Positions 1,806 through 47,308 of a stretch of 64,000 nucleotides of DNA are shown piece after piece. Positions within the stretch are counted from its first letter, which is position 1. Every line of letters begins with the position of its first letter. The stretch is from positions 62,001-126,000 of the forward strand of contig NZ_JAGQBA010000001.1 in NCBI RefSeq assembly GCF_024345395.1, in the 5' to 3' direction. Under the pieces are notes generated by a model that made no database searches, had not been told where the DNA came from, and saw only the letters and a program-made list of their open reading frames with translations. The position numbers were made by a program, and so were the translations under genes. This DNA comes from Cyanobium sp. Tous-M-B4 (GTDB lineage: Bacteria; Cyanobacteriota; Cyanobacteriia; PCC-6307; Cyanobiaceae).

Positions 1806-2809
1806 ATCGGCGCCTCCAGGCTCATGCAGAGATTGGGCTGCTCGACGCACTGCTCAATCAGGTCAGCCAGCTGCAAAGCCCGGGAAGCCTGCAAGCCATC
1901 CACCGCCGGGGTCTCCACACCCCGCACGCACTGGAGGAAATGCTCTAGTTCGGCGTAAAGGGGCTCAATGGAGGTGGTACTGACCTCTTCAATTACTCCA
2001 TCGGATCTGTAAACCAGCTCGCCGTGATCTGCGCTCACCGACTCGTGAGCGCGGCGATGAATGTGTAAGGTGCGATTAAGAAAATCCGTCTCTACCAAGC
2101 TGCCGCGGCAGTGGGCACTAAGGCTGCGAATCTTGCGATGGGCCATCTTGCTAGCCGTCAGGCTGGCCACCACACCATTAGCAAAGGCCAAGGTGGCGTT
2201 GACGTAGTCGATTGGTCCCTCAGCACTGCGACCTCCGGCCGCCGCCAGGCGAATCACTGGCGCCCCAGCCAGCTCCAGCACAAGGTCAATGTCGTGGATC
2301 ATCAGGTCGAGCACCACCGACACGTCATTGGCGCGGTCTGGGTTGGGACTGTGACGGCGCGCTTCAAGCACTACCACCTCCTCATTGGCCACAACCTTGA
2401 CCAATTCCCGGAAGGCGGGATTGAAGCGCTCGATATGGCCCACCTGCAGCAGACGACCGGCCTGCTCGGCCGCATGGATCAACTCAACCGCCTCCTCCTG
2501 ACTGGCCGCAATCGGCTTCTCGATCAGCACGTGCACCCCGGCCTTCAGGCAGGCCAAGCCGACGCGGTGGTGAAGCAGGGTGGGAACGGCGATACATACA
2601 GCGTCCACCTCGGGCAACATTTCCTCGTAGGAGGGGAACCAGCGGCAACCGAACTGCTCGGTAGCTAGCTGACCGCGGCTCCCATCTGGATCAGCCACCC
2701 CCACCAGTTCGGCGTCTTTGATCAGGCTCAGCACCCGGGCGTGGTGCCAACCCATGTTGCCGATGCCGATGACACCCACGCGCACAGGGTTCAAGGCAGG
2801 GGCTCTCAA
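1802..2809 (-). CDS. Gfo/Idh/MocA family NAD(P)-dependent oxidoreductase
   Basis: A protein of 335 residues with an N-terminal Rossmann fold (GVIGIGNMGWHHARV, a GxGxxG-type loop) followed by the family's EKPIA motif near residue 97 and the C-terminal alpha/beta domain. Family members oxidise or reduce sugars, nucleotide sugars or biliverdin-like substrates with NAD(P). The GHIERFNPAF segment is typical of the sugar-dehydrogenase branch, including UDP-N-acetylglucosamine 3-dehydrogenase-like enzymes, but the substrate is not determined here. No ATG lies upstream of the Rossmann loop, so a TTG start at 2809 is used; a TTG or GTG a few codons later is equally possible. The gene converges on and overlaps the upstream gene by 4 bases. 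Confidence 0.85.
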   Translation of the reverse strand: MRAPALNPVRVGVIGIGNMGWHHARVLSLIKDAELVGVADPDGSRGQLATEQFGCRWFPSYEEMLPEVDAVCIAVPTLLHHRVGLACLKAGVHVLIEKPIAASQEEAVELIHAAEQAGRLLQVGHIERFNPAFRELVKVVANEEVVVLEARRHSPNPDRANDVSVVLDLMIHDIDLVLELAGAPVIRLAAAGGRSAEGPIDYVNATLAFANGVVASLTASKMAHRKIRSLSAHCRGSLVETDFLNRTLHIHRRAHESVSADHGELVYRSDGVIEEVSTTSIEPLYAELEHFLQCVRGVETPAVDGLQASRALQLADLIEQCVEQPNLCMSLEAPI

Positions 2810-2849
2810 CTGAGGGCATTATCGGGGGTACGGGGGCCCAGACCGCTGA

Positions 2850-4184
2850 TCAGCCGCCCTCGGTGCGCTCCGGTTCGACGACTGGACGCTCGATCTGCAC
2901 TCGCTCAATGCGCGGGCCATCCATGGCCAGCACCCGAAATTGGTGGCCTTTCCAACGCAAACCTTCACCGGCCGAGGGAATGTGCTGCAAGCGCTCAAGC
3001 AGGAAGCCAGCAAGCGTGTGATGACCTTCCGCCTCAGGCAACTGCAGCGCTAGCTGCCTGTTGAGTTCGAAGATTTCCAGGTCACCTGCCACCGACCAGC
3101 AGCCTTCGCCGAGTTGCTGCAGATCCTGGGCCGCCTCAAGGGAATCTTCTTCCTCGCCAACAATCTCGCTAGTGAGGTCGGCCACCGTGACCAGCCCCTC
3201 CGTACCACCATGCTCATCCACCACCACCAGCAGGGGCTGACCACTGCGAATCAGGGGCAGGAGCTCCGCCAGGGAAGTGCTCTCCTGCACCAGCGCCACG
3301 GGGGTGATGTAGGGAGCCAGGGGAGTGTCGGCGCTGAGCAGGCCCCTGGCAATGGGATCAGCAAGACGCCGCAAGTCAAGCACCCCACGCACGTCGTCGA
3401 GGGAGCTGCCGATCACCGGGAAGCGGGCGTGGGCGGTGTCATGGACCTCGCGCATCAGCTCGGCAAAACTCACATCCAGGGGCAGGGTGACCATGCCGGA
3501 TCTGGGCACCATCACCTCCCTCACCAAGGTGTCCCGCAGCGAAAAGACTCCCTCCAAAATGTTGCGTTCGTCGGGCATAAGACCGGTGACGTTGCCGGTT
3601 TCGATCAAGGTTTCAAGCTCGCCAGCTGACAGGGCAGGCACCAGCTCATCCCAGTTACGGGGTAAGCCCAGCAGGTGCAGCAGCACTCCGCTGCAACGCT
3701 CAATGAGGGAAAGCAAGGGGGACAGGTTGCGACTCACCGCAGCCAGCAATGGCGCCAGTCGCAAAGCCGAGCTTTCGGGACGATGCAACACCCAGGCCTT
3801 GGGCAGTAAGCCGCCCAGCACGGTGGCAAGCATTACCAGGACAAGAAATAGGCCGGCATCAAGCCAAACCTGGGGAATGGCTCCAGCACCACTTCTGGCG
3901 GCAATAGCCAAGCCGAGCTGTTCAGCCAAGCCGCGACCGGCCCAGCCCAATGCCACCAAAGCGAGCGCCGTACCCAGCTGGGTAGCCACCAGGACTCGCC
4001 GGAGACGGTGTTGCAGCTTGGCAACGGCTTGGGCACCGGGCTCACCGGCCTCCTGCAGTTGCTGCACCCGGCTAGGCCGCAGGCGAATCAGGGCGAATTC
4101 CCCAGCGGCAAAAAAAGCCAGCAGAGCCAGCAAAACGGCCAGCGCCAGGACTTGAATCACAGGAAGCCCAGCCAGGAGAGCCAT
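2850..4184 (-). CDS. CNNM/CBS-domain membrane protein (hemolysin C / CorC family)
   Basis: The N-terminal third is a DUF21/CNNM transmembrane module: the first helix is VIQVLALAVLLALLAFFAAGEFAL, followed by an LVALGWAGRG helix and a third near residues 105-125. A CBS pair follows (VREVMVPRSGMVTLP and the later VVVDEHGGTEGLVTVADL), then a C-terminal CorC_HlyC domain (WSVAGDLEIFELNRQL...HHTLAGFLLERL). The length of 444 residues is normal. Relatives act in Mg2+ or Co2+ efflux or homeostasis at the inner membrane; the old hemolysin name is historical. It starts from ATG and lies 65 bases upstream of tRNA-Met on the same strand. Confidence 0.9.
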   Translation of the reverse strand: MALLAGLPVIQVLALAVLLALLAFFAAGEFALIRLRPSRVQQLQEAGEPGAQAVAKLQHRLRRVLVATQLGTALALVALGWAGRGLAEQLGLAIAARSGAGAIPQVWLDAGLFLVLVMLATVLGGLLPKAWVLHRPESSALRLAPLLAAVSRNLSPLLSLIERCSGVLLHLLGLPRNWDELVPALSAGELETLIETGNVTGLMPDERNILEGVFSLRDTLVREVMVPRSGMVTLPLDVSFAELMREVHDTAHARFPVIGSSLDDVRGVLDLRRLADPIARGLLSADTPLAPYITPVALVQESTSLAELLPLIRSGQPLLVVVDEHGGTEGLVTVADLTSEIVGEEEDSLEAAQDLQQLGEGCWSVAGDLEIFELNRQLALQLPEAEGHHTLAGFLLERLQHIPSAGEGLRWKGHQFRVLAMDGPRIERVQIERPVVEPERTEGG

Positions 4185-35942: not shown

Positions 35943-36574
35943 GCGCCACACTGGCCCCAACGGAGATCCCCATGCGCACCGGCAGCATCCACCGCGTCAC
36001 CGGCGAAACAGACGTGCGCGTGAGCCTGGGGCTCGACGGCAGCGGCCGCTGCGCAGTGAATACGGGCGTGCCCTTCCTTGACCACATGCTCCACCAGATC
36101 AGCAGCCACGGCCTGATCGACCTGGAGATCAAGGCGGTGGGGGATACCCATATCGACGATCACCACACCAATGAAGACGTGGGCATTGCCGTGGGCCAGG
36201 CCCTGGCCCAGGCCCTGGGCGAGCGGCGCGGCATCCACCGCTTCGGTCACTTCCTGGCGCCGCTGGATGAGGCCCTGGTGCAGGTGGCTCTCGACTGCAG
36301 CGGCCGGCCCCACCTCAGCTACGGGCTAACGATCCCGGCCCAGAAGATCGGCAGCTACGACACCGAGCTGGTCAAGGAGTTTTTCGTGGCGGTGGCCAAC
36401 AACGCCGGCCTCACCCTGCACATCCGCCAGCTGGATGGGGTGAATTCCCACCACATCGTGGAGGCCAGCTTCAAGGCGTTCGCCCGGGCGCTGCGCCAGG
36501 CGACGGAGCTCGATCCACGCCGGGCAGGTGCGGTGCCGAGCAGCAAGGGTGTGCTGGAGCGCGCTGGCAGCTGA
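35939..36574 (+). CDS. hisB: Imidazoleglycerol-phosphate dehydratase
   Basis: Dehydrates IGP in histidine synthesis. The two metal-binding HHxxE motifs are DDHHTNED and [26 protein letters not shown] and [11 protein letters not shown] are also conserved. 211 residues. GTG start overlapping fabI by 4 bases. Last gene before the accessory island. Confidence 0.96.
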
Positions 36575-36960
36575 GCTGCCGCTGGAGCACCAACAACGAC
36601 GTAAATATAGCCAAGCCGATATTTGCCAGCCGAAACATGCGCGGCATAGATGCTGCGATTTAACAACAAACCTGGAGCGATTACGGGGATCCAGAAAGCA
36701 GCCATCATCAATTGTGCTTCCTAAGTTAAGAAGGTGATGTCAGCCAATCGAATAGTTCAATACCCACAGAGAACTTCTCGCCCAAACCGTCGCAAGCAGT
36801 GAGCCACAAAAAAGCAAATACAATCATGCGGCAGCGCTAAACGCATGGGCAGGGATCTTGCTGTAGCGCATTGGTACAGCCAGATTCTACCTGCCGGAGC
36901 TTTGATGACGCAAAGCTGACTGCTGACATCACGCCATCCATTACACCAGGGTGATTCCCC
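36575..36960. other. 386-base intergenic region before the surface-protein gene
   Basis: AT-richer than the hisB side. It contains no convincing gene. On the reverse strand from 36711 an ORF opens with AGGAAG about ten bases before tandem ATG codons and a hydrophobic start (MAAFWIPVIAPGLLL), but it runs antisense into hisB and is not supported by a family. A perfect inverted repeat, AGCTTTG/CAAAGCT, lies at 36898-36917. An AGGGTGA Shine-Dalgarno-like site precedes the ATG at 36961. Confidence 0.5.
36898..36917. promoter_or_regulatory. Perfect 7-bp inverted repeat upstream of surface-protein gene
   Basis: AGCTTTG and CAAAGCT flank a 6-base spacer, 44 bases before the start codon. It could be an operator or a leader hairpin; there is no T-tract to make it a terminator. 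Confidence 0.35.
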
Positions 36961-39900
36961 ATGGAGAAGCGTAATTCAAAGGAAAAGCAGAACAATCCCA
37001 TGCAAGATTTGTTGGTTGCATGGAGTGGCAACCAACGGCGCTCCAGCTGGGTAGATCAGATTTTGCCAACCGTCAGGCCCGACACAGCTCCTGACACGGG
37101 CATTGCGAACAGTCAGGCGTCGGCTGCCGGCAACCCAAGGGTCAGCACCGACAAGGCCGATTACGCACCTGGTGAAACAGCAGTCATCAGTGCCAGCGGC
37201 TTCAGACCAGGCGAAACGATCACCTTTGCGATTGCCGACGATCCCCTAGATCCCGGCGATGATGGCGATGCCGACGCCTATGCCCCATTCAGCATCACCG
37301 ATGGTGGCGAAGGGGATCTCGACGGCCAAAGGAATGGCAAAGTAACAACCAGCTGGCAGGTGCCCAGCGATGATGATGGCAGTGGCAGCGGTACGCCGGA
37401 TGCACTGAATGCCACGCTCCTACTCACTGCGAGTACCAGTGGTGGACAGATTGCGAACACAACATTCACCGATTCAGGACTTTATCTCGTTACCGAAAAA
37501 AGCGATTACGCGCCTGGAGATGAAGCCCTAATCCTGGCCTCTGGCTTCAGGGCAGGAAGCACGATTGAATTCAGCGTTGAAGTCCTCAGCCCAGGCCTCG
37601 ACACAATCTACGGAACTACCGATGATGTGATTGACGCAGCAGCAACCGCTCTACTTGGAGAAACTCCTTGGACTGTGATCGACGGAAGCCCGCTCGACCT
37701 GGACAATGCTATCGATGGCACGGTTGAAACAAGCTGGTTCGTCGATGCCGACGCGCAGGGCCGCACACTCAGACTGACAGCCAGAGGATTTGGTGTCGAT
37801 GGTTTAAAAAATACAGCAGACGACGAGGTGGCCATCACCTCGTTCACGGACGCGCAAGGGAGTTTCTCCAAGCCCTACGCCCACTGGGCGGATTTTCCCC
37901 TGCCCGGGGATTGGAACAACAACATTCTCAACGACAACAAATCCAACTACTTCGAAGGCGAGGTGATTCCCCATGTCTTCATGTATGGGGCTTCCAACAA
38001 CGCGCAACTCGTGAATGGAGAATCCTACTCATTCAACGTTACGTACAACTACTACCAGCAAAACACCGATGCCGGCGGCTTTGCGTACATGACAGAGTAC
38101 GACCTAAGCCGGCAGCCCAACGTTTTCGACTGGGCTACTCCTGCGATCACGCCAGTTGTTGACAGTATCTTCACCAACAGCGGCGGCATAACTGACGGCA
38201 ACGGTGGCGCGGATGGCGGTGCGAACTTCTGGACGGTCGATGCCGACATCACCGCCGTGAGCGGTGTGACTTACACGGGTACCGGAACCAAGGATGGGGT
38301 CGTTACGATCACGTTCACCTACACAGGGGAAACGACCGGGAACGGTTATGCGGCGATCTACTACGGACTGTACATAGCCCAACCCGGCGAGGTGCCCGAT
38401 CAGAATGCAGGAACGACAAACGGTGCTGCCGCCTGGAGCGGTGGCTCGCTGCAGACAACAGTCGATATCGGCGGCTCGGGCGCTACCTCGATCCAGCTGG
38501 CACCGAGCGCAATCATTCAGGGAGAGATCAGCGGCCTGAAGTTCAACGACCTAAATGGCAACGGTGTCAAGGAGAGCGGCGAACCAGGCCTTGCGGACTG
38601 GACGATCTACCTTGATGACGACACAGACACGACTAACGGCAACCTTGGCTTTGTCCTGACTGCTGATGGAATCACCGACGATCTAGATGGCAACGGCTCA
38701 ATCGATCCGTTGGGCTTCTACTACTTCTCGGTGACACCCGGCACGTACTACATTTACGAAGAGGATCGGGACGGCTGGGTTCAAACAGCCCCATCAACGA
38801 TCTCCTACGGACCGCTGGTTGTCAGTGCCGATACGCCAACGTATCTGAACAAGGACTTCGGCAACCGGATCGCAGAAACCAATGTAGGACTGGAAGGCCA
38901 TAAGTTTCACGACCTGAATGGCGACGGAAGTTGGCAACAACCTGGCGAACCTGGGTTGGCAGGTTGGACGATTTATCTAGACCTTGACAATGACAACTCA
39001 TTTGACGAAGGCGAGCCCTTTGATATCACCGCTGATGACGGAGGCTGGGCGATCACAGCCGAGCTGGTAGATGGCACTTACTACCTGCGAGAAGAGCTTG
39101 AAGACGGATGGATTCAGAGCAACCCCACCACCGCTGTCGACGGGGAGTACAGAATTGAGGTGCTCAATGGAGCATTCACAATATTCAACGGTGACGTCCA
39201 GGTTGTTAGTGGAGATGTTGACTTTGGCAACTTCCAACAAGCAACCAAGTCCGGTACCAAGTACGAGGACCTGAATGCCAATGGCATCCTCGATGACGGT
39301 GATACCGCTCTCGCTGGCTGGACCATCTACATCGATGCCAACGCCAACGACACTCTCGATGACGGTGAAATCTCCACCATCACCGACGGCAACGGCAACT
39401 ACTCCTTCTCTCTTGATCCCGGCACCTACACCTTCCGGGAAGTCCTCCAGGACGGCTGGTTCCAGTCCGGTCCTGATGGCGGTGAATACACCGAAACCTT
39501 CACGTCCGGTTCTTCCTCCACTGAAAATAACTTCTTCAACTTCAGGCAAGCAACCAAGTCCGGTACCAAGTACAATGATCTCAACGGAAACGGCACTCGA
39601 GACGATGGCGAGCCTGGCCTAGAAGGTTGGACCATTTACATCGATGCCAACGCTAACAACATCTTCGATATAGGTGAGACGTCGACCATCACCGACGCGA
39701 ACGGCAGCTACTCCTTCTCTCTTGATCCAGGCACCTATACCTTCCAAGAAGTCAACCAAAGTGGCTGGGTTCAAACTCAAGGTGGCTACACGGAAACCCT
39801 GATCTCCGGAGAAATTTCTGAAAACAACAATTTCGGCAACTGGCAGCCTGGAGTATGCGGATTGACCCCAGGCTTCTGGGGTCAACACCTATGGGCATGG

Positions 39901-40695
39901 GATGGCAATCCCACTACAGACGGCCAAGTGGATAAGCAAGGGCGAACTCTGGCCTCGAAACTCGTCAGTGATGAAGTTCTGAGCTTCGAGGATGTTCTCA
40001 TTGCCATTGACAGCAATAGAGACAATAGCTTCACCGAGTTGGACATCAAAGGCGTTTTGGTCGGAGACACGAATCTGAATGGCTTATGGGATGACGCGGC
40101 AAATGTATTCTTTACACTTAATGATGCCCAGAATCTGATCAACCCCAGCACAAACCTCGTGAATGCAGATCAGCGAAGCAAGATGGCTCGAGATGTGATT
40201 GCGGCTCAGCTCAATCTGCAAAATGGTGCAACCGCAGACAGCGGAGTGAAAGATCTCATTACTGGAGCGGCTCTATGGCTGACGGCAGGTGAACCATATA
40301 ACAGCTTTACGGGTAAGAACAGCAGCTTGACAGGGGATGTTGATACTCTGATTCAGGCAGGAGAACCAGCAGCAGGTGGCTGGGCAGACACCAAATACAC
40401 AAATCAAGGTGTCTTTAATGGCTTTGCAGGCTCAGCAGTTACGGCCAAAATGGCTGCCTGGCAGCAAGAAAAATCATATGAGGATTGCTCTCTCTCAGCT
40501 TCTGAAATCCACGAAACACTTGATGACTTCAATAACTGTCTTATCACTACTGGTATCGACGTATCCACGCAACAGCCCCTAGTGATGGCTCTAGCCGGTG
40601 ACGGCAATGATGGAAATTACCAGGATGATCGCGCAATCGGCACTGGAAGCATGACCATCTTCACTGATTTCATGACTGTTGCTAATCTCGTTTGA
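36961..40695 (+). CDS. Large SdrD-B-repeat surface/secreted protein
   Basis: A 1244-residue acidic protein without a classical signal peptide, so type I secretion is likely. Order: polar leader (1-60); two Ig-like repeats, each opening DYAPG and GF[R]xG (from ~61 and ~176); a unique beta-rich region (~300-520) with many Asn/Tyr; four SdrD B-like domains starting near 521, 642, 761 and 864, each with a Ca-binding-type DLNGNG loop, GLxGWTIYxD and a GWxQ end; then a ~280-residue tail opening CGLTPGFWGQHLWAWDG. B-repeat domains form stiff Ca2+-stabilised stalks on cell surfaces. The TPGFW-type tail recurs as a terminal domain of such proteins, function unknown. Visibly AT-richer than core genes. 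Adhesion or cell-surface coat is inference. An 18-nt upstream spacing and good SD support the ATG. Confidence 0.8.
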   Translation: MEKRNSKEKQNNPMQDLLVAWSGNQRRSSWVDQILPTVRPDTAPDTGIANSQASAAGNPRVSTDKADYAPGETAVISASGFRPGETITFAIADDPLDPGDDGDADAYAPFSITDGGEGDLDGQRNGKVTTSWQVPSDDDGSGSGTPDALNATLLLTASTSGGQIANTTFTDSGLYLVTEKSDYAPGDEALILASGFRAGSTIEFSVEVLSPGLDTIYGTTDDVIDAAATALLGETPWTVIDGSPLDLDNAIDGTVETSWFVDADAQGRTLRLTARGFGVDGLKNTADDEVAITSFTDAQGSFSKPYAHWADFPLPGDWNNNILNDNKSNYFEGEVIPHVFMYGASNNAQLVNGESYSFNVTYNYYQQNTDAGGFAYMTEYDLSRQPNVFDWATPAITPVVDSIFTNSGGITDGNGGADGGANFWTVDADITAVSGVTYTGTGTKDGVVTITFTYTGETTGNGYAAIYYGLYIAQPGEVPDQNAGTTNGAAAWSGGSLQTTVDIGGSGATSIQLAPSAIIQGEISGLKFNDLNGNGVKESGEPGLADWTIYLDDDTDTTNGNLGFVLTADGITDDLDGNGSIDPLGFYYFSVTPGTYYIYEEDRDGWVQTAPSTISYGPLVVSADTPTYLNKDFGNRIAETNVGLEGHKFHDLNGDGSWQQPGEPGLAGWTIYLDLDNDNSFDEGEPFDITADDGGWAITAELVDGTYYLREELEDGWIQSNPTTAVDGEYRIEVLNGAFTIFNGDVQVVSGDVDFGNFQQATKSGTKYEDLNANGILDDGDTALAGWTIYIDANANDTLDDGEISTITDGNGNYSFSLDPGTYTFREVLQDGWFQSGPDGGEYTETFTSGSSSTENNFFNFRQATKSGTKYNDLNGNGTRDDGEPGLEGWTIYIDANANNIFDIGETSTITDANGSYSFSLDPGTYTFQEVNQSGWVQTQGGYTETLISGEISENNNFGNWQPGVCGLTPGFWGQHLWAWDGNPTTDGQVDKQGRTLASKLVSDEVLSFEDVLIAIDSNRDNSFTELDIKGVLVGDTNLNGLWDDAANVFFTLNDAQNLINPSTNLVNADQRSKMARDVIAAQLNLQNGATADSGVKDLITGAALWLTAGEPYNSFTGKNSSLTGDVDTLIQAGEPAAGGWADTKYTNQGVFNGFAGSAVTAKMAAWQQEKSYEDCSLSASEIHETLDDFNNCLITTGIDVSTQQPLVMALAGDGNDGNYQDDRAIGTGSMTIFTDFMTVANLV
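39241..39849 (+). repeat. Tandem ~309-bp intragenic repeat (B-domains 3 and 4)
   Basis: Two direct copies begin at 39241 and 39550 with the same GCAACCAAGTCCGGTACCAA start. They stay highly similar through the segments encoding GWTIYIDANAN and SYSFSLDPGTYTF. They encode the third and fourth SdrD B-like domains. The first two B-domains (from 38521 and 38884) are much more diverged, so copies 3 and 4 arose by a later duplication. Confidence 0.85.
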
Positions 40696-40714
40696 ACTGC
40701 AGGCAAATATAGAT

Positions 40715-40744
40715 AAAGGGGTGGGCTTCGCCCATCCCTTTTTA
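40715..40744 (+). terminator. Rho-independent terminator of the surface-protein gene
   Basis: A 12-bp stem (AAAGGGGTGGGC with GCCCATCCCTTT, one G-U) around a TTC loop is followed by a T-run. It starts 20 bases after the stop codon. Confidence 0.88.
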
Positions 40745-40892
40745 TTGGCAATGGAGCAATTAACAGCCGACCCAGGGCTATTAGTAGTAAAAATTTCTTT
40801 ATAAATGCGTGCAGAGCAACACTCCTTCACACATAGAACATCCCTTTGAGCTTCTTGAAGACCACATTCAGCAGTGGCGAGCCCCATTCTCC

Positions 40893-41734
40893 ATGGCCTT
40901 TCTCCGCAACCGTTATTCAGCAGCTCTCCCCATTGCTGTTGTGTCCCATGTCTCTATGATCACGAACTGCGCCACAGTCCATCCCCTGCCTCACGGCATC
41001 TTTGGTGCTGACGATCGCATCCCGGTCGACTCAAGTCGTTGGCCTTGGCAGGCGATTGGCATTGTGCAGCGACGATTCGGCGGTGCCTGTTCCGACACCC
41101 TCATCGCCCCCAGCGTGGTGCTCACGGCGGCCCACTGCACGTACGACCAACGCAATAGACGGGCCCTTCAGGCAGCTGATCTGCGCTTCCTGACGTCAGG
41201 TCAGCTTGGACAGACCGCACACACGCCATCGCCCTCCACCATTGCCGGCATCGTGCGCCCATCTCTAGGCCATGGCCAGCGCAATCCAACGATCAAGAAC
41301 ATGGCAACCGATTGGGCCTTGATCGTGCTTCGTGCCCCCTCCCCCTGCGGCCCATCCCCCTGCGGGTTGCCCGTCTCCCCGACGGCCAACCGATCGCTCG
41401 TGCGGGATTCAGCGAAGGCGATCGCCTCACGCTGGTGCCTGCCTGCTGGATCCTTTACCGCGATCCAGCTGATCGCTTCTGGTTCACTGACTGCGATACC
41501 CTCGCAGGCGATTCCGGCTCACCGGTGCTCGCTGGAGAAGGGAATGGCATCACCGTGGTGGGCGTCAGCTCCGGTCTCCTCAAGGACGACCGGGGCAGAC
41601 CTGGCAGCGTGGTGGTGCCAGCCCGCATGATTTGGACTCGAATCCAAAAGTTGAGGGTTCCAGGATCGAACCAGAGGCTCTTGACCAGGCTGGCCGATCA
41701 GAAGATGGCCAATGTGGACAAGCTACCGGCATAA
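40893..41734 (+). pseudogene. Trypsin-like serine protease, frameshifted
   Basis: A chymotrypsin-fold secreted protease broken across two frames. The first frame (ATG 40893, probable signal peptide, then WPWQAIGIVQ) carries the catalytic His in VVLTAAHCTYD and the Asp in ATDWALIVL. Near 41335-41360 the sequence shifts by one base at a C-rich run (CCCCCTCCCCC). The other frame then continues with LRVARLPDGQPIARAGF and the catalytic Ser in TDCDTLAGDSGSPVLAGEG, ending at 41734. One missing C would restore a single ~280-residue protein with the complete triad. It could be a real pseudogene, a phase-variable homopolymer or a sequencing error. The 3' end overlaps the convergent metalloprotease stop by 37 bases. 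Confidence 0.8.
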
Positions 41735-44088
41735 CCGGTGATCTCGATCACGCTGTCGCTGCTCGCATTGAACCCTGCTCTGCCGTCATTGAGCGCCAGG
41801 AAGGTGCGCAGGTTGCCGCCATCTCCAAAAGTAAACGTGGAAGCTCCATTCTTGGCGAAGGTCTTGCTGGTCAGCAAGGCTCCAATACCGGCAACATCTA
41901 GGGTCTTCACCATCCCGAGCTGTCTGGGATTGATGGCGGAGCTTCGAGTGAAGGGACTGTCAATCGTATCGACACCGGCCTGAAGGTTGGTGATTCGATC
42001 AGGCGTAACGCTCCAAAAGGCATCACTGAGACGGTTCAAAGTGAAGCTATCGGTGCCGCTTGTGCCGGTGAGGATGTCAGCCTGAGTGGTGAAGACCAGT
42101 GGAGCAGCAACGGAATCGTCGTTGCTGATCGTGCCGGTTACGGCGTTGGTGGTTCCGATGCTGTAGCCCGTGCCAGGAGCAAGCAGCAAGCTCACGGTTT
42201 CATCAGGTTCCACAATGCTGTCAGCCGTGGGATCGATCACAACAGTGGCTGTGGATGCATTCGCAGCAAAAGTCACACTCTGGCTGCTACCTGCCTTTAA
42301 ACCGATGTAGTCGCTGGCATTGGTGGCGGTTCCCGTTACCGTGAAGTTAACGCTCAGCGACTGGGCGCTGGCCTGCGATCGGGTGAACGTATAAACTATA
42401 TTTGCGCTGCCATCCTCATTTACAAGGATGGGAGAGAGGCTCAGTGTGATCACGGGGCTTGTTGTGACATCCGGCGCCGATGTAATCGTGCCACTGATCC
42501 AAAAATCACCAATGCTGGCGTAGTCGGTATAGCCAGTCGGCATACTGGCTGATGGGTCCCCAAAGCCCACACCGTCCAGCTTCAGGAAGTAGGTGCCCGT
42601 TGAGAGCCCCTGCAGAGACATTGATGTAGCCAGTCCGGGGTCATTGGAGGTGTAGAGAAGGTTGCTATTACTGTCATAGAGCTGCACCTCGAGATCAAGG
42701 CTGGCTGCATTGTCGGGATATGGAGTGGTGGAGCGAACATCACTTGTATTACCGAGATAGGCAGTATAACTTCCTCCCCAGACGCCATCTTCATCCACAT
42801 AGGCTCGATACCAGTATGGACTAAAGCTGAGGTCTAGATTGCCGAAGTCGAGAATTTCAAAGGAATAGTAGTCGAGATCATAACGGGTTTCAATGGTGCC
42901 GAACTGGCCGACTGTTTCTCCCACGATTGACAGCGGAGCGGCAGCCAAGGCGCTATTGCCCACCAGATCAGGCCGATAAGAGAATCCGTTACCGCCAACG
43001 ATTACGGCCAGATCACCATCACCTTTGCCGTAATTAGCGGTGCTACCAGTATTGTTACTGCCCGTATAAGTTCCATCGTCCCAGGTGGTGACGTTACGAT
43101 TGTAGCTCCCTCCCATGATCGGGGCCCAGCTGGTCTCGCCTGTGCCGCCATGCCCTGTGTAGTAGGTGGTACTGGCGGTCCCATCGTGTGACAGCCCTAA
43201 CGCATGGCCCACTTCGTGGCTGATTGTCTCACTGACTCCGATGAGCGTTTTGTTGTAGATAAACACAGGAGTGTCTGTGCTCGAGTTGAAACTTCCGACA
43301 AATGCAATTCCAGCCGCCGTCGAAGAAGAAGGTCCGTAACTGCTAATCACCGCCCGTACTCCCCAGCTTTCATCACTGCTTCCTGACCGCGCCAGCCAAT
43401 CAGCAGGCGGCTCCTGCAATGTCACATTGACATCAAACGGGGAAAAATCGTTTGCCACCCGTTGCCAGATCTGCTGGATAGAGATGAGTTCACTATCACT
43501 GAAACGAGTGGGGTCGCCATTCGTGTCGTAGGCAGGAGAGTAGAAAGAACTCCCCATCGTGGAATTGTTCCATGATGTGCCGCTTGTGGTATGGCCATTG
43601 AAGTCAAGATAGATAATCTTCGAGGCACCTGGATGGGAGTTCAGCCTGAATGTGAAGCCTAGATCCAGAAGTGGAGTCGATGACACCACTCCCTGAGTGG
43701 AATCCAGACCCAGCAACGCCTCGGGAGCGAGTTCAATGCAGATCTTCTGGGGGGAATCCGTTTGATGCCGGGAGTCATGATCCCCCTCTGAATGGTCGTA
43801 CGATTGTTCCTGTGATTGCTTCTCAGTCACCCACTGGTGTGCACCAGAGTGAGCGGCTGCGGACAGGACTGTGCTAGCGACTTGAGGATCCTGGCTGTTC
43901 AGACCCTGCTGGCTCGCCTGTTTGCCATCGCGCTCATAAGTCTGATTTTCTACCTCATCGTCCACCTCTGTTTGGCTTTGGAGGGCTTTCGGTGTGCTGA
44001 TGACGTGGTCACTCTGGCGTTCACGTCTGTTTGCTTGTTCAAAGATCCAGGGCAATGCAAGGGGCAGATGTTCAATGTGGCGGGCCAT
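41698..44088 (-). CDS. Metzincin-type metalloprotease with Calx-beta and bluetail-like C-terminal domains
   Basis: A 796-residue secreted-type protein. After a Gln/Ser-rich leader (about 110 residues, no signal peptide) comes a peptidase domain with zinc motif ISHEVGHALGLSHDG (HExxHxxGxxH) and Met-turn APIMGGSYN, then a beta-rich pre-peptidase-C-like region (LQGLSTGTYFLKLDG), a Calx-beta domain (VNEDGSANIVYTFTR ... EPDETVSLLL ... GTISNDD) and a C-terminal segment (DRITNLQAGVDTIDSP ... FLALNDGRAGFNASSDSVIE ...) resembling the bluetail domain of cyanobacterial surface proteins. Type I export is likely. The ATG at 44088 is used; a GTG at 44145 would add 19 residues. Convergent with the broken trypsin gene. 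Confidence 0.82.
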   Translation of the reverse strand: MARHIEHLPLALPWIFEQANRRERQSDHVISTPKALQSQTEVDDEVENQTYERDGKQASQQGLNSQDPQVASTVLSAAAHSGAHQWVTEKQSQEQSYDHSEGDHDSRHQTDSPQKICIELAPEALLGLDSTQGVVSSTPLLDLGFTFRLNSHPGASKIIYLDFNGHTTSGTSWNNSTMGSSFYSPAYDTNGDPTRFSDSELISIQQIWQRVANDFSPFDVNVTLQEPPADWLARSGSSDESWGVRAVISSYGPSSSTAAGIAFVGSFNSSTDTPVFIYNKTLIGVSETISHEVGHALGLSHDGTASTTYYTGHGGTGETSWAPIMGGSYNRNVTTWDDGTYTGSNNTGSTANYGKGDGDLAVIVGGNGFSYRPDLVGNSALAAAPLSIVGETVGQFGTIETRYDLDYYSFEILDFGNLDLSFSPYWYRAYVDEDGVWGGSYTAYLGNTSDVRSTTPYPDNAASLDLEVQLYDSNSNLLYTSNDPGLATSMSLQGLSTGTYFLKLDGVGFGDPSASMPTGYTDYASIGDFWISGTITSAPDVTTSPVITLSLSPILVNEDGSANIVYTFTRSQASAQSLSVNFTVTGTATNASDYIGLKAGSSQSVTFAANASTATVVIDPTADSIVEPDETVSLLLAPGTGYSIGTTNAVTGTISNDDSVAAPLVFTTQADILTGTSGTDSFTLNRLSDAFWSVTPDRITNLQAGVDTIDSPFTRSSAINPRQLGMVKTLDVAGIGALLTSKTFAKNGASTFTFGDGGNLRTFLALNDGRAGFNASSDSVIEITGYAGSLSTLAIF

Positions 44089-44267
44089 CAGGAGGTCCCG
44101 CTGCGAGGCGGGTGAATCAGATGCGATCAGCCTCCAATCCACCACTGATCTGCGTCAAAGCCGCAGGACATCTGAAGCAGCTCGCCGAGGCCCAGCACCA
44201 GCAGAAACGCCCTGCGCTGCAAACTGTTCCGGTTGTCTCAGACCTCCAACAGGAGCCCATCGGATCC

Positions 44268-44281
44268 GTAAACCGATTTAC
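44268..44281. promoter_or_regulatory. Small inverted repeat between metalloprotease and DUF6447 gene
   Basis: GTAAA and TTTAC flank CCGA in the 316-base region upstream of the metalloprotease ATG. It may be an operator. The rest of 44089-44404 shows no gene or clear promoter; it contains one GCGATCGC (HIP1) site near 44393. Confidence 0.25.
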
Positions 44282-44404
44282 ACCGCACCGGTTAGCACCG
44301 CTTCAGGGCTTTGCAACGGCGTGCCTTGCCATCAAAAAGCCAGGGTCTAGCCCCGGCAGGAATAGTGCTGTTAGCTCGATCAAGTTGCGGTGGCGATCGC
44401 TGCT

Positions 44405-44686
44405 TCAGTAGTGATGATCACCATTTCCATCAGGGCTATCTCCACTGGTACCTACAGAGAATTCAGCATTCTCTTCCTCACTCATGGCCTTGCGCAGGCT
44501 TGCGCCGTAGGTTTGCTTGGCTGCCTGCAGATGACGCAGCTCAAATTGCTGCTGGGCAATTTGTTGCTCCAATCGCATCATGTCTTGGAGAAGCAATTGG
44601 GCAGTGCGCGGCAACTCAGAAAATTCATAGTCTCGATCATTGAAGTTCAGCTTCAGATTAGGCTGCGGTGCCGTCGTTGTGGTCAT
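44405..44686 (-). CDS. DUF6447-like small coiled protein
   Basis: A 93-residue protein: LKLNFNDRDYEFSELPRTA, then a helical QLLLQDMMRLEQQIAQQQ, LRHLQAAKQTYGASLRKAM and an acidic, His-ending tail. The pattern (short strand, DRDYEFSEL, long Gln-rich helix, TYGASL) matches DUF6447-type cyanobacterial hypotheticals, often found near secreted proteins. Function unknown. The ATG at 44686 is chosen over the longer frame, whose extra residues overlap the divergent promoter. Divergent from the REC-kinase fusion gene (179-base gap). Confidence 0.7.
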   Translation of the reverse strand: MTTTTAPQPNLKLNFNDRDYEFSELPRTAQLLLQDMMRLEQQIAQQQFELRHLQAAKQTYGASLRKAMSEEENAEFSVGTSGDSPDGNGDHHY

Positions 44687-44865
44687 TGGGGAAGTATCCA
44701 GAGGGCCCATCGGCGAGCTGCACCGATACTGCTTCATAGACACGCGTATTCGCCTTGCCGGGCTGGCAGCATTTCTGCTGCAACCGTACATCGCTTAGAT
44801 CTATTTTACCTCTGGCATTGTCACGCTATTAGCAAGAAACCCGTCAGCCACGGTGAGAAGACAGC

Positions 44866-46452
44866 ATGGCTGGTGATTCACCACCTACAACCGAGGGAGC
44901 TCTAAGTTCATCCTTGGTGGGGGAACTGACCAGCGCACGTTGCGGTGCTCAAATTTGGTGGCTGGAGGATGACCGCCACCTCTGCCGCCTGGTCGAAGCT
45001 CGGCTGCGAGCATGCGGCTGGCGCCTAACCCTCTTCCACAAGAGCCAGGACCTGTTAGACGCCCTCCACCAGGATCAGCCGGATCTGCTGATCCTCGACC
45101 GCCTCCTGCCGGGGATAAATGGCATTGCACTACTGCAAAGCCTGCGCCAAAAACGCCATGCATTCCCCGTGCTGATGCTCTCGGCCATGGGTTCGGCGGA
45201 CGAACGGATCGAAGGCCTAGCACTCGGAGCCAACGACTACCTAACCAAGCCGTTTCGCTGCCGCGAATTGATTTGGCGTCTTGAGCGGTTACTGCAGGGG
45301 GGGCCGCCGCCACTAATACATGGCTCCTCGCGGGAAGGGGGCGTACCCCTCGGCCCCATGGCGCTCGACCGGCGCAAGTGTTGCCTACGCGATGCCGCCG
45401 GAATGGAGTTTCCCCTCTGCCGCGGCGACATCGCCCTCCTGCTGACTTTGTTGGAAATGCCAGGCACGGTGCGCAGCCGTGAACAGCTAGCCCGGGCCAG
45501 TGGCTCCATGGTGAATGTCACCGAGAGCCGCTCCCTCGATGTGCGCCTCTCACGGCTGCGGCGCCTGCTGCAGCGCCTCTCAGCGGGAGACGTGAGCATC
45601 GAAGCGGTGCGCGGGATTGGCTACCGCCTCAAGATGCCCAGTTTTGGCTCCAATCAAGAGGCCCTGGTCTCGATCGTGATCCTGGGCATGAGTATCAGCC
45701 TGTTGGGCCTGCGGACGCTGCTGGCCTTCCCCCCCGGACTGCTTTGGGCCATTGGGGTGGGTGGGCTCCTGATCACGGCGCTGGTGCAGCGGCGCCGCAT
45801 CGTGCGGTTGGAGGAACAGCAAGCAGATCAAGCACTGGAGGCGACCGAACAGCGAGCCCACTGGCAGACGCTGCTGCACGACCAGACAGCTCCGCTGACG
45901 CGACTGGTGCTGCGAGTGGAGGAGCTTCAGCCAAATCAACCCCCTGACCAGGAGCTGGTGGAGGGTCTCAGCTGTGATCTCGAGCTGCTGCGCGAGCTGC
46001 AGGAGCAAATGGGACCATCGCGAGGCCAACCCGGTTCCCTGACGGGCAGCCAGGCTGTTGAGCTGGCGGACCTCTGCCAGCAGATCGCCCGCCACTACCG
46101 CCGTGATTTCGTACAGCTGGCGGTACCCACGCTGAGGCTTCACCTGGAAGTAAATCAGCTAAGGCGGGTGCTGCACAACCTGATCGACAACGCGCTGGAA
46201 CACGGCAGCCCTCCGGTACACATTCGCGCCTATCCCGAGCCGGGAGGTCTGGTGCTTGAGGTGGAGGACCGTGGGCCAGACATGGTCAAGGTGGCTTCCG
46301 ACCTGGCAGGTGGATGGCCCCATGGGGGCCTGGGCCTGGCCTTGGCAATAGATTTCTGTCGTCGCCATGGCGGACGGTTGGAGCTTGAGCCGCAGACCGA
46401 CGGTGGGCTGCTAGTGCGGTTGCGACTTGGTCATGACTGTGTGCTGAGCTAA
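44866..46452 (+). CDS. Response regulator-histidine kinase fusion (REC, OmpR-type DNA-binding, two membrane helices, kinase)
   Basis: One 528-residue chain carries a full OmpR-type regulator followed by a kinase. REC: acidic pocket E34-D35-D36, phospho-acceptor D78 (LLILDRLLPG), S106 and K128 (YLTKPF) are all present. Winged helix ~165-250: GDIALLLTLLEMPGTVRSRE, ESRSLDVRLSRLRRLL, AVRGIGYRLKMP. Two membrane helices at ~266-285 and ~292-307 join through a tiny FPPG loop, so there is no periplasmic sensor. A linker coil leads to a DHp-like helix with H338 (LLHDQTAPLTRL), then an ATPase with N box LHNLIDNALEHG, DRGPD and GGLGLALAIDF. This predicts a membrane-tethered transcription factor with its own kinase. 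Good SD (GTGAGAAG) before the ATG. Likely targets, by position, are the neighbouring exoprotein genes (inference). Confidence 0.9.
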   Translation: MAGDSPPTTEGALSSSLVGELTSARCGAQIWWLEDDRHLCRLVEARLRACGWRLTLFHKSQDLLDALHQDQPDLLILDRLLPGINGIALLQSLRQKRHAFPVLMLSAMGSADERIEGLALGANDYLTKPFRCRELIWRLERLLQGGPPPLIHGSSREGGVPLGPMALDRRKCCLRDAAGMEFPLCRGDIALLLTLLEMPGTVRSREQLARASGSMVNVTESRSLDVRLSRLRRLLQRLSAGDVSIEAVRGIGYRLKMPSFGSNQEALVSIVILGMSISLLGLRTLLAFPPGLLWAIGVGGLLITALVQRRRIVRLEEQQADQALEATEQRAHWQTLLHDQTAPLTRLVLRVEELQPNQPPDQELVEGLSCDLELLRELQEQMGPSRGQPGSLTGSQAVELADLCQQIARHYRRDFVQLAVPTLRLHLEVNQLRRVLHNLIDNALEHGSPPVHIRAYPEPGGLVLEVEDRGPDMVKVASDLAGGWPHGGLGLALAIDFCRRHGGRLELEPQTDGGLLVRLRLGHDCVLS

Positions 46453-46474
46453 ACAACCTTCTGAGATCGAATAA

Positions 46475-47308
46475 CTAGTCCGGACTGGACTCCCGCGACC
46501 ACAAAAACAACCCCAGCCGCTCGGCGTCCGCCATCGTCTGCTCCGCATCCAGCAACAGGGCACTGCGGGCTTCCCAGGCGATGCCCGCCAACCCAGCCGC
46601 CGCGGCTTTCGCCACGGTGGTGGGACCGATGCCGGGCAGGTCCATGCGCCGGTCTTGGTTGAGCTTGGGGGCCTTGTAGAGCACGCCGGAGCGGCCCGTT
46701 TCCGGTCGCTCCGGGCGCGTGGCTGCCACCCACTCGAGCATGGCGTCGGTACCGGGCAGCGCTTCGGTGGCCAGGCACAGCCCCTTAGCCACCACCGCTC
46801 CCTGGCCCACATCCACCTGGGAAATGGCCTCAACGATGTAAGCGGCACGCTCCACATCGGCCCGGTCCAGATCGCTCGGCACGGTGCTGGCATACAGGCC
46901 CGGCTCCGGCAGCAAATTTGGAGCCACATCTTCGATGCCCACCACCTTCAGGCCGTGCTCCTCGATGATCTGGGCCAGGGCCCGCAGGGAGGCATCGTCG
47001 CCATTGCGCAGCGAGGCCAGGATGCGCGGCGCCGCCATCAAGGTGGAGCCCTCAAAGCGCAGCAGGTTGAGCGAGCGCGGCCGCACAAACTTGCCCACCA
47101 TCACGATCTGCTCGATGCCGCGCTGCTGCAGCGACTTGATGAAAGCGATCGAGCGCTCGAAGAAAAACTCCTCAGCCGCCGGCACCTCCACCTCCAGGCC
47201 GTGGGGGTAGCAGGCGATATGGGGCCGCCCCGCACGGCTGAGAGCCTCCGAGAGCATCCGAGGCAACACGCCCTCACCAGCAATGATCGCGACGGTCGGA
47301 TCACCCAT
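46475..47308 (-). CDS. lpxI: UDP-2,3-diacylglucosamine pyrophosphatase LpxI
   Basis: A 277-residue DUF1009 protein that cleaves UDP-2,3-diacylglucosamine to lipid X, the step before LpxB. VAIIAGEGVLPRMLSEAL opens the first domain; VMVGKFVRPRSLNLLRF, VVGIEDVAPNLLPEPG, GQGAVVAKGLCLATEALPGTDAML and GIAWEARSALLLDAE are characteristic. The ATG at 47308 is preferred over a TTG at 47350. It replaces LpxH in many non-proteobacterial lineages. Converges on the REC-kinase gene; 47 bases from hisS. Confidence 0.93.
   Translation of the reverse strand: MGDPTVAIIAGEGVLPRMLSEALSRAGRPHIACYPHGLEVEVPAAEEFFFERSIAFIKSLQQRGIEQIVMVGKFVRPRSLNLLRFEGSTLMAAPRILASLRNGDDASLRALAQIIEEHGLKVVGIEDVAPNLLPEPGLYASTVPSDLDRADVERAAYIVEAISQVDVGQGAVVAKGLCLATEALPGTDAMLEWVAATRPERPETGRSGVLYKAPKLNQDRRMDLPGIGPTTVAKAAAAGLAGIAWEARSALLLDAEQTMADAERLGLFLWSRESSPD

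Follow-up and report, generated by a model that had tools for sequence, protein, structure and literature searches.

The picocyanobacterium Cyanobium sp. Tous-M-B4 carries a single open reading frame in which an OmpR-family response regulator (RR) is fused to a histidine kinase (HK). The gene (44866..46452, + strand) encodes 528 amino acids, contains the Pfam domains of both partners, and its codon usage favours frame 0. Coordinates refer to the window, the whole stretch of 64,000 nt that was analysed, and all parts of the fused gene given below lie on the + strand. The fusion, its parentage and its occurrence in a single genome were observed. By definition, the product is a hybrid transmembrane transcription regulator with an inverted domain order; its history is clear, and its activity is predicted from the sequence. 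The best explanation, in which we have moderate confidence, combines an operon-fusion origin with a product that would act as a self-phosphorylating, membrane-tethered transcription factor.

Domains, catalytic residues and membrane hairpin

The N-terminal 255 residues matched full-length OmpR/PhoB-family regulators (PhoB/RpaB/BaeR-like). Three of the four domains listed in the original prediction were recovered above the Pfam gathering cut-off, namely Response_reg (PF00072, residues 33-138, E 2e-21), Trans_reg_C (PF00486, residues 186-255, E 6e-11) and HATPase_c (PF02518, residues 430-521, E 1e-10). The fourth, HisKA, gave no match to the fused protein at E≤1, and related kinases matched it weakly, below the cut-off. 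In the family alignment, the REC domain (residues ~29-143, 44950..45294) kept all active-site residues, D35, D36, D78 (codon 45097-45099), S106 and K128 (codon 45247-45249), and it was followed by an OmpR/PhoB-type winged helix (residues ~159-255, 45340..45630) with PhoB/RpaB/BaeR-like matches. With REC and Trans_reg_C domains, the active-site Asp, the Lys and the acidic pair, this half is an OmpR/PhoB response regulator.

The DHp region of the kinase (residues ~327-382, 45844..46011) was recognized by an invariant HD..P..R motif, by the helices of a structure model and by a Foldseek match to HK cores. H338 (codon 45877-45879), D339, P343 and R346 were invariant across the family alignment. 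The CA domain (residues 430-521, 46153..46428) kept N438, which is the N-box Asn, N442, D468-x-G470 and G488-x-G490. A phospho-accepting His, an N box, G1/G2 boxes and the HK fold were thus all found, as in a DHp-CA histidine kinase core. The phosphotransfer residues that had been predicted, D78, K128, H338 and the N/G boxes, were present apart from the second Gly of the G1 box, which is also missing from the sister kinases. Two features count against activity: T341 replaces the usual H-box Arg, a position at which some relatives differ too, and the ATP-lid region is shortened.

Between the two halves, 19-residue hydropathy maxima were located at residues 270-288 and 290-308. An AlphaFold model of residues 258-528 (mean pLDDT 80.6, pTM 0.70) showed helices at 264-287 and 290-321, followed by the DHp pair and the CA domain. 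Foldseek matched this model to the DHp-CA structures 4kp4 and 2c2a/HK853 (E ~1e-9 to 1e-10), and LvrB structures were also among the matches. The hairpin (45661..45789) consists of TM1 (~266-287), the loop AFPP (287-290) and TM2 (~291-308). Hydropathy, model and sequence therefore agree with the two membrane helices and four-residue loop originally described, and the model bears out an HK853-type kinase core behind them. The predicted order of REC, OmpR-type winged helix, two-helix hairpin, DHp helix and ATPase was likewise borne out by Pfam, alignment and model.

Two TM helices, a loop of <25 aa and no sensor domain place the kinase half with the intramembrane-sensing histidine kinases. It has no HAMP, and the distance from the end of TM2 to H338 is ~30 residues versus ~60 in relatives. 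The arrangement is consistent with both soluble halves lying on the cytoplasmic side of a hairpin that passes out and back. Beside the fused gene, no transporter or accessory membrane gene was recognised.

Origin from split RR-HK operons and nature of the joint

In ~30 related Cyanobiaceae loci the two modules are adjacent genes, divided at ~residue 255 (for example G003:C403, G285:C14 and G245:C2, and a paralogue in the same genome at G000:C6). The best matches were a regulator (47-50% identical) and then a kinase (37-42% identical) as separate genes, with the RR first and typically a 4-nt overlap, ATGA, to the kinase gene. These split operons share domains, gene order and catalytic residues with the fused protein, and their trees are congruent with it; they differ in being two genes, in having a HAMP-like stretch and in a spacing from winged helix to TM1 that is ~40-74 nt longer. 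The window was sister to the same ten-row clade in the RR tree (98/93) and in the HK tree (95/90), indicating that the halves most likely came from one cognate operon. With 1.48 and 1.96 changes per column, the end branches of the window are long, which makes the exact placement uncertain, and the catalytic residues were kept despite this.

Kinases of the sister clade (324-361 aa) lack a periplasmic domain and have two TM helices joined by a short loop, and more distant kinases have ~120 extra residues in the periplasmic region. The prediction that the protein lacks a periplasmic sensor was therefore correct, but this absence is not tied to the fusion, because the unfused sister kinases share it. 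Judging by these kinases, the sensor loss is older than the fusion and was inherited from the sister clade. The original prediction had also named, as a refuting observation, homologues that are always split at about residue 250, and every related locus in which a pair was found is indeed split, at ~255. This shows that the gene arose by fusion of an RR-HK operon, a derived state known so far from a single genome, and is not a new sensor class.

Among 158 loci with matches, both halves were in one frame only in the two copies of the window locus itself. Searches for further fused copies were negative in ~400 Cyanobiaceae genomes, queried by HK and by RR, in 390 class-wide genomes, in 60 relatives and in three whole genera. 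Some long-frame candidates were inspected one by one, and none of these was fused; the apparent 800-aa frames of G000:C1:169703 and its relatives proved to be normal regulators of 280 aa that lie within long open frames. A scan of genome contigs returned distant RRs only, mostly from Firmicutes, and a plasmid search gave two-piece matches only.

In the sister-clade pairs (L189-L192, L194 and L195), the common downstream genes are one or two unknown proteins and then a polysaccharide pyruvyl transferase, hinting at a possible role in control of cell-surface polysaccharide. The paralogous pair of the same genome (L040, G000:C6:74500-81500, at 1869-3918) has a periplasmic region of ~120 residues and lies near apparent sugar-nucleotide and surface-polysaccharide genes.

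The joint comprises residues 256-265 (45631..45660), as placed by its length and by the position of the split genes, and contains an ATG at M257 (45634-45636), possibly the old kinase start. From GYRL, the regulator's conserved GY.L, to the first TM window there are 24 nt here versus 64-98 nt in 28 split relatives. Codon-usage log-odds, trained on the other long ORFs of the window, were positive in frame 0 and negative in the other two frames over codons 241-300; over the joint alone they were +3.8 for frame 0, -4.0 for frame +1 and -1.0 for the remaining frame. The one stretch in which frame 0 fell slightly below zero was codons 121-160, the linker between REC and winged helix, and there the other two frames scored lower.

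An assembly or sequencing error that joined two adjacent genes, which the original prediction had named as a possible refutation, would fit with the split state of all relatives. Moreover, just past the joint frame +1 runs into a stop at GTGA, where TGA and GTG overlap in a way reminiscent of the 4-nt overlap seen in relatives. However, the joint is shorter than in any split relative by at least 40 nt, which a one-base error cannot account for, and together with the codon scores this length rules out a single-base frameshift. Substitution of a single stop at codon 256 is unlikely, as no relative's RR ends there. The locus also lies on a 585-kb contig of an assembly that is 99.7% complete. Although the joint is seen in one assembly, the continuous frame statistics and its shortened length argue, at the sequence level, that an assembly error is unlikely to lie behind the fusion, and we give this explanation very little weight.

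Island neighbours and a kinase-less sibling

The fused gene ends a lineage-specific island of 9.93 kb (36556..46487). Nine same-genus genomes have an empty site there, with flanks that align at 84-96%. The island adjoins lpxI and has a GC content of ~0.54-0.60 vs 0.65; no clear target-site repeats, target duplication or integrase were recognised at its ends. It encodes an SdrD-like protein, a trypsin-like protease, a reprolysin-like metalloprotease with Calx-beta (41698..44145, - strand), a small coiled-coil ORF (44405..44686, - strand; DUF6447-like by a weak Pfam match) and the fused protein. The trypsin-like gene (40809-41734) lies in two frames, with profile positions 10-100 in one ORF and 166-212 in the other, and there is a frameshift or sequencing indel near 41380.

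A locus of another genus (L202, G273:C87, 2211-6400) has the metalloprotease (70% identical), the small ORF (71%) and a divergent regulator (57%) in the same arrangement. The small ORF of the window was over-called as 44405-44791, and homology to this G273 locus sets its start at 44686, a conserved position that leaves a divergent intergenic region of 179 nt (44687..44865). Because the divergent arrangement is common to both loci, this region is the best guess for the target, and we propose it as a putative operator, with the metalloprotease as a candidate co-regulated gene. No conserved operator-like motif shared with G273 was found in 44687-44865, and no sigma-70-like promoter was found.

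The G273 regulator was the closest found to that of the window (270 bits vs 217 for the next), and when it was added to the RR tree the two paired at 100/98. It is a 266-aa orphan with an atypical receiver and no kinase after it. The position of D78 is Gly and that of D35 is Lys, unlike in all other rows compared, and the fused copy keeps both residues. Kinase and phospho-acceptor are thus both lost in G273 and both kept here, the pattern expected if the fused kinase acts on the receiver of its own protein.

Proposed activity, alternative explanations and known systems

In the proposed mechanism, a co-transcribed OmpR-family RR and its cognate, periplasm-less two-TM histidine kinase became one polypeptide by a deletion of ~40-75 nt that took out the end of the regulator with its stop codon, and also some of the N-terminus of the kinase. 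The protein would reside in the membrane with the REC-winged helix and kinase parts both cytoplasmic, dimerize via DHp and autophosphorylate at H338, and the phosphate would then pass to D78 within the same dimer. Phosphorylated REC domains would pair the winged helices, which may bind promoter DNA while tethered, as in ToxR/CadC, probably at 44687-44865 between the fused gene and the divergent small-ORF/metalloprotease genes. From the gene arrangement, these divergent genes are most likely under the control of the putative factor. Activity may be largely constitutive, or tuned by the membrane state or a membrane partner, given the four-residue loop and the missing HAMP. By analogy with SaeS, whose kinase activity rises when its short extracytoplasmic loop is removed (PMC4388633), a kinase with such a loop and no HAMP may be mostly active. 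We tentatively read the protein as a complete, functioning two-component system contained in a single chain, regulator in front, in which a hairpin kinase would hold the winged helix ~ten residues from the bilayer and phosphorylate it in the dimer, and of which the unfused parents and a kinase-less, Asp-less sibling are still visible.

Several observations were counted against a self-phosphorylating tethered factor: the loss of HAMP, the frameshifted island neighbour, the joint known from a single assembly, and M257, which could permit separate synthesis of the kinase. The fused ORF might be real and its working form two proteins, if an internal start (M257 or another codon) and/or proteolysis at the joint restored a normal two-component pair. 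M257 sits about where the relatives' kinase gene begins, model confidence is low directly after the joint, and DNA is not easily bound by a domain tethered ~10 residues from the membrane. However, no ribosome-binding-like sequence is evident upstream of M257 and a free regulator requires a cut. We consider a two-protein form unlikely. Slightly less likely again is a degenerating system, in which the fusion would be a recent accident, the horizontally acquired island would be in decay and signalling would be slight or absent. Such degeneration would agree with the singleton status among the searched genomes, the long end branches, the frameshifted trypsin gene of the same island, T341 in the H-box and the G273 relative without kinase and Asp, but every catalytic residue of both halves is retained and the frame stays open, with codon bias over almost the entire gene.

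Alternatively, the REC domain could act as the input, an arrangement found in Rec-controlled kinases, of which LvrB is an example; another kinase would then phosphorylate D78 and thereby steer the attached kinase. REC indeed lies N-terminal to DHp-CA, as in LvrB, whose structures matched the kinase model (PMC13269768). LvrB has no DNA-binding domain or TM between them, and its REC alpha5 runs directly into the signalling helix and DHp as one continuous helix, whereas here the winged helix and two TM helices intervene. Given also that the fusion descends from a transcriptional RR and the kinase of that RR, a REC input is highly improbable.

Proteins that join a DNA-binding domain, TM helices and at least one two-component core domain in one chain are defined as hybrid transmembrane transcription regulators (PMC10269533), and the fused protein has all of these. 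They make up 8.2% of transmembrane regulators, are recent evolutionary products and are not genus-conserved (PMC10269533). According to Cock and Whitworth (2007), as cited in PMC3018481, the one- or two-protein state of two-component systems depends on TM sensors and DNA-binding outputs, the reason given being that these need different places in the cell. As represented there, earlier genome surveys suggest that fusion of a membrane kinase to a DNA-binding regulator is disfavoured. Because a TM kinase and a DNA-binding output are joined here, and the parental split pairs, their cognate pairing and the kinase-less sibling are visible, the cost and benefit of membrane tethering are directly testable by re-splitting the gene.

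Like the fused protein, ToxR/CadC have an N-terminal cytoplasmic OmpR-type winged helix anchored by the following TM helix, and they demonstrate that a membrane-held winged helix of this type can activate promoters (PMC5430869). Unlike the fused protein, with its two TM helices and lack of a periplasmic domain, they combine a single TM with a periplasmic sensor and carry neither REC nor kinase. In CadC the linker is long and disordered, at ~50 residues (1-107 and 1-159 constructs; PMC5430869), against 8-10 residues from the winged helix to TM1 here, and this short spacing may sterically hinder binding to DNA at the membrane. SaeS-type intramembrane-sensing kinases share the two TM helices, the loop of <25 aa and the absence of a sensor domain; in contrast, SaeS is separate from its RR, retains HAMP and has a 9-aa loop vs 4 aa (PMC4388633).

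A non-exhaustive literature search found no published account of the regulator-first order with both TM and DNA-binding parts. Hybrid transmembrane transcription regulators, including the HTCS proteins, resemble the fused protein in that a single chain contains REC, a kinase core, a DNA-binding domain and TM helices (PMC10269533). In Bacteroidales HTCS, a large periplasmic sensor comes first and the DNA-binding domain last. The order in the fused protein is inverted relative to both hybrid kinases and HTCS, as had been claimed: the regulator comes first and the kinase last in one chain, with no sensor.
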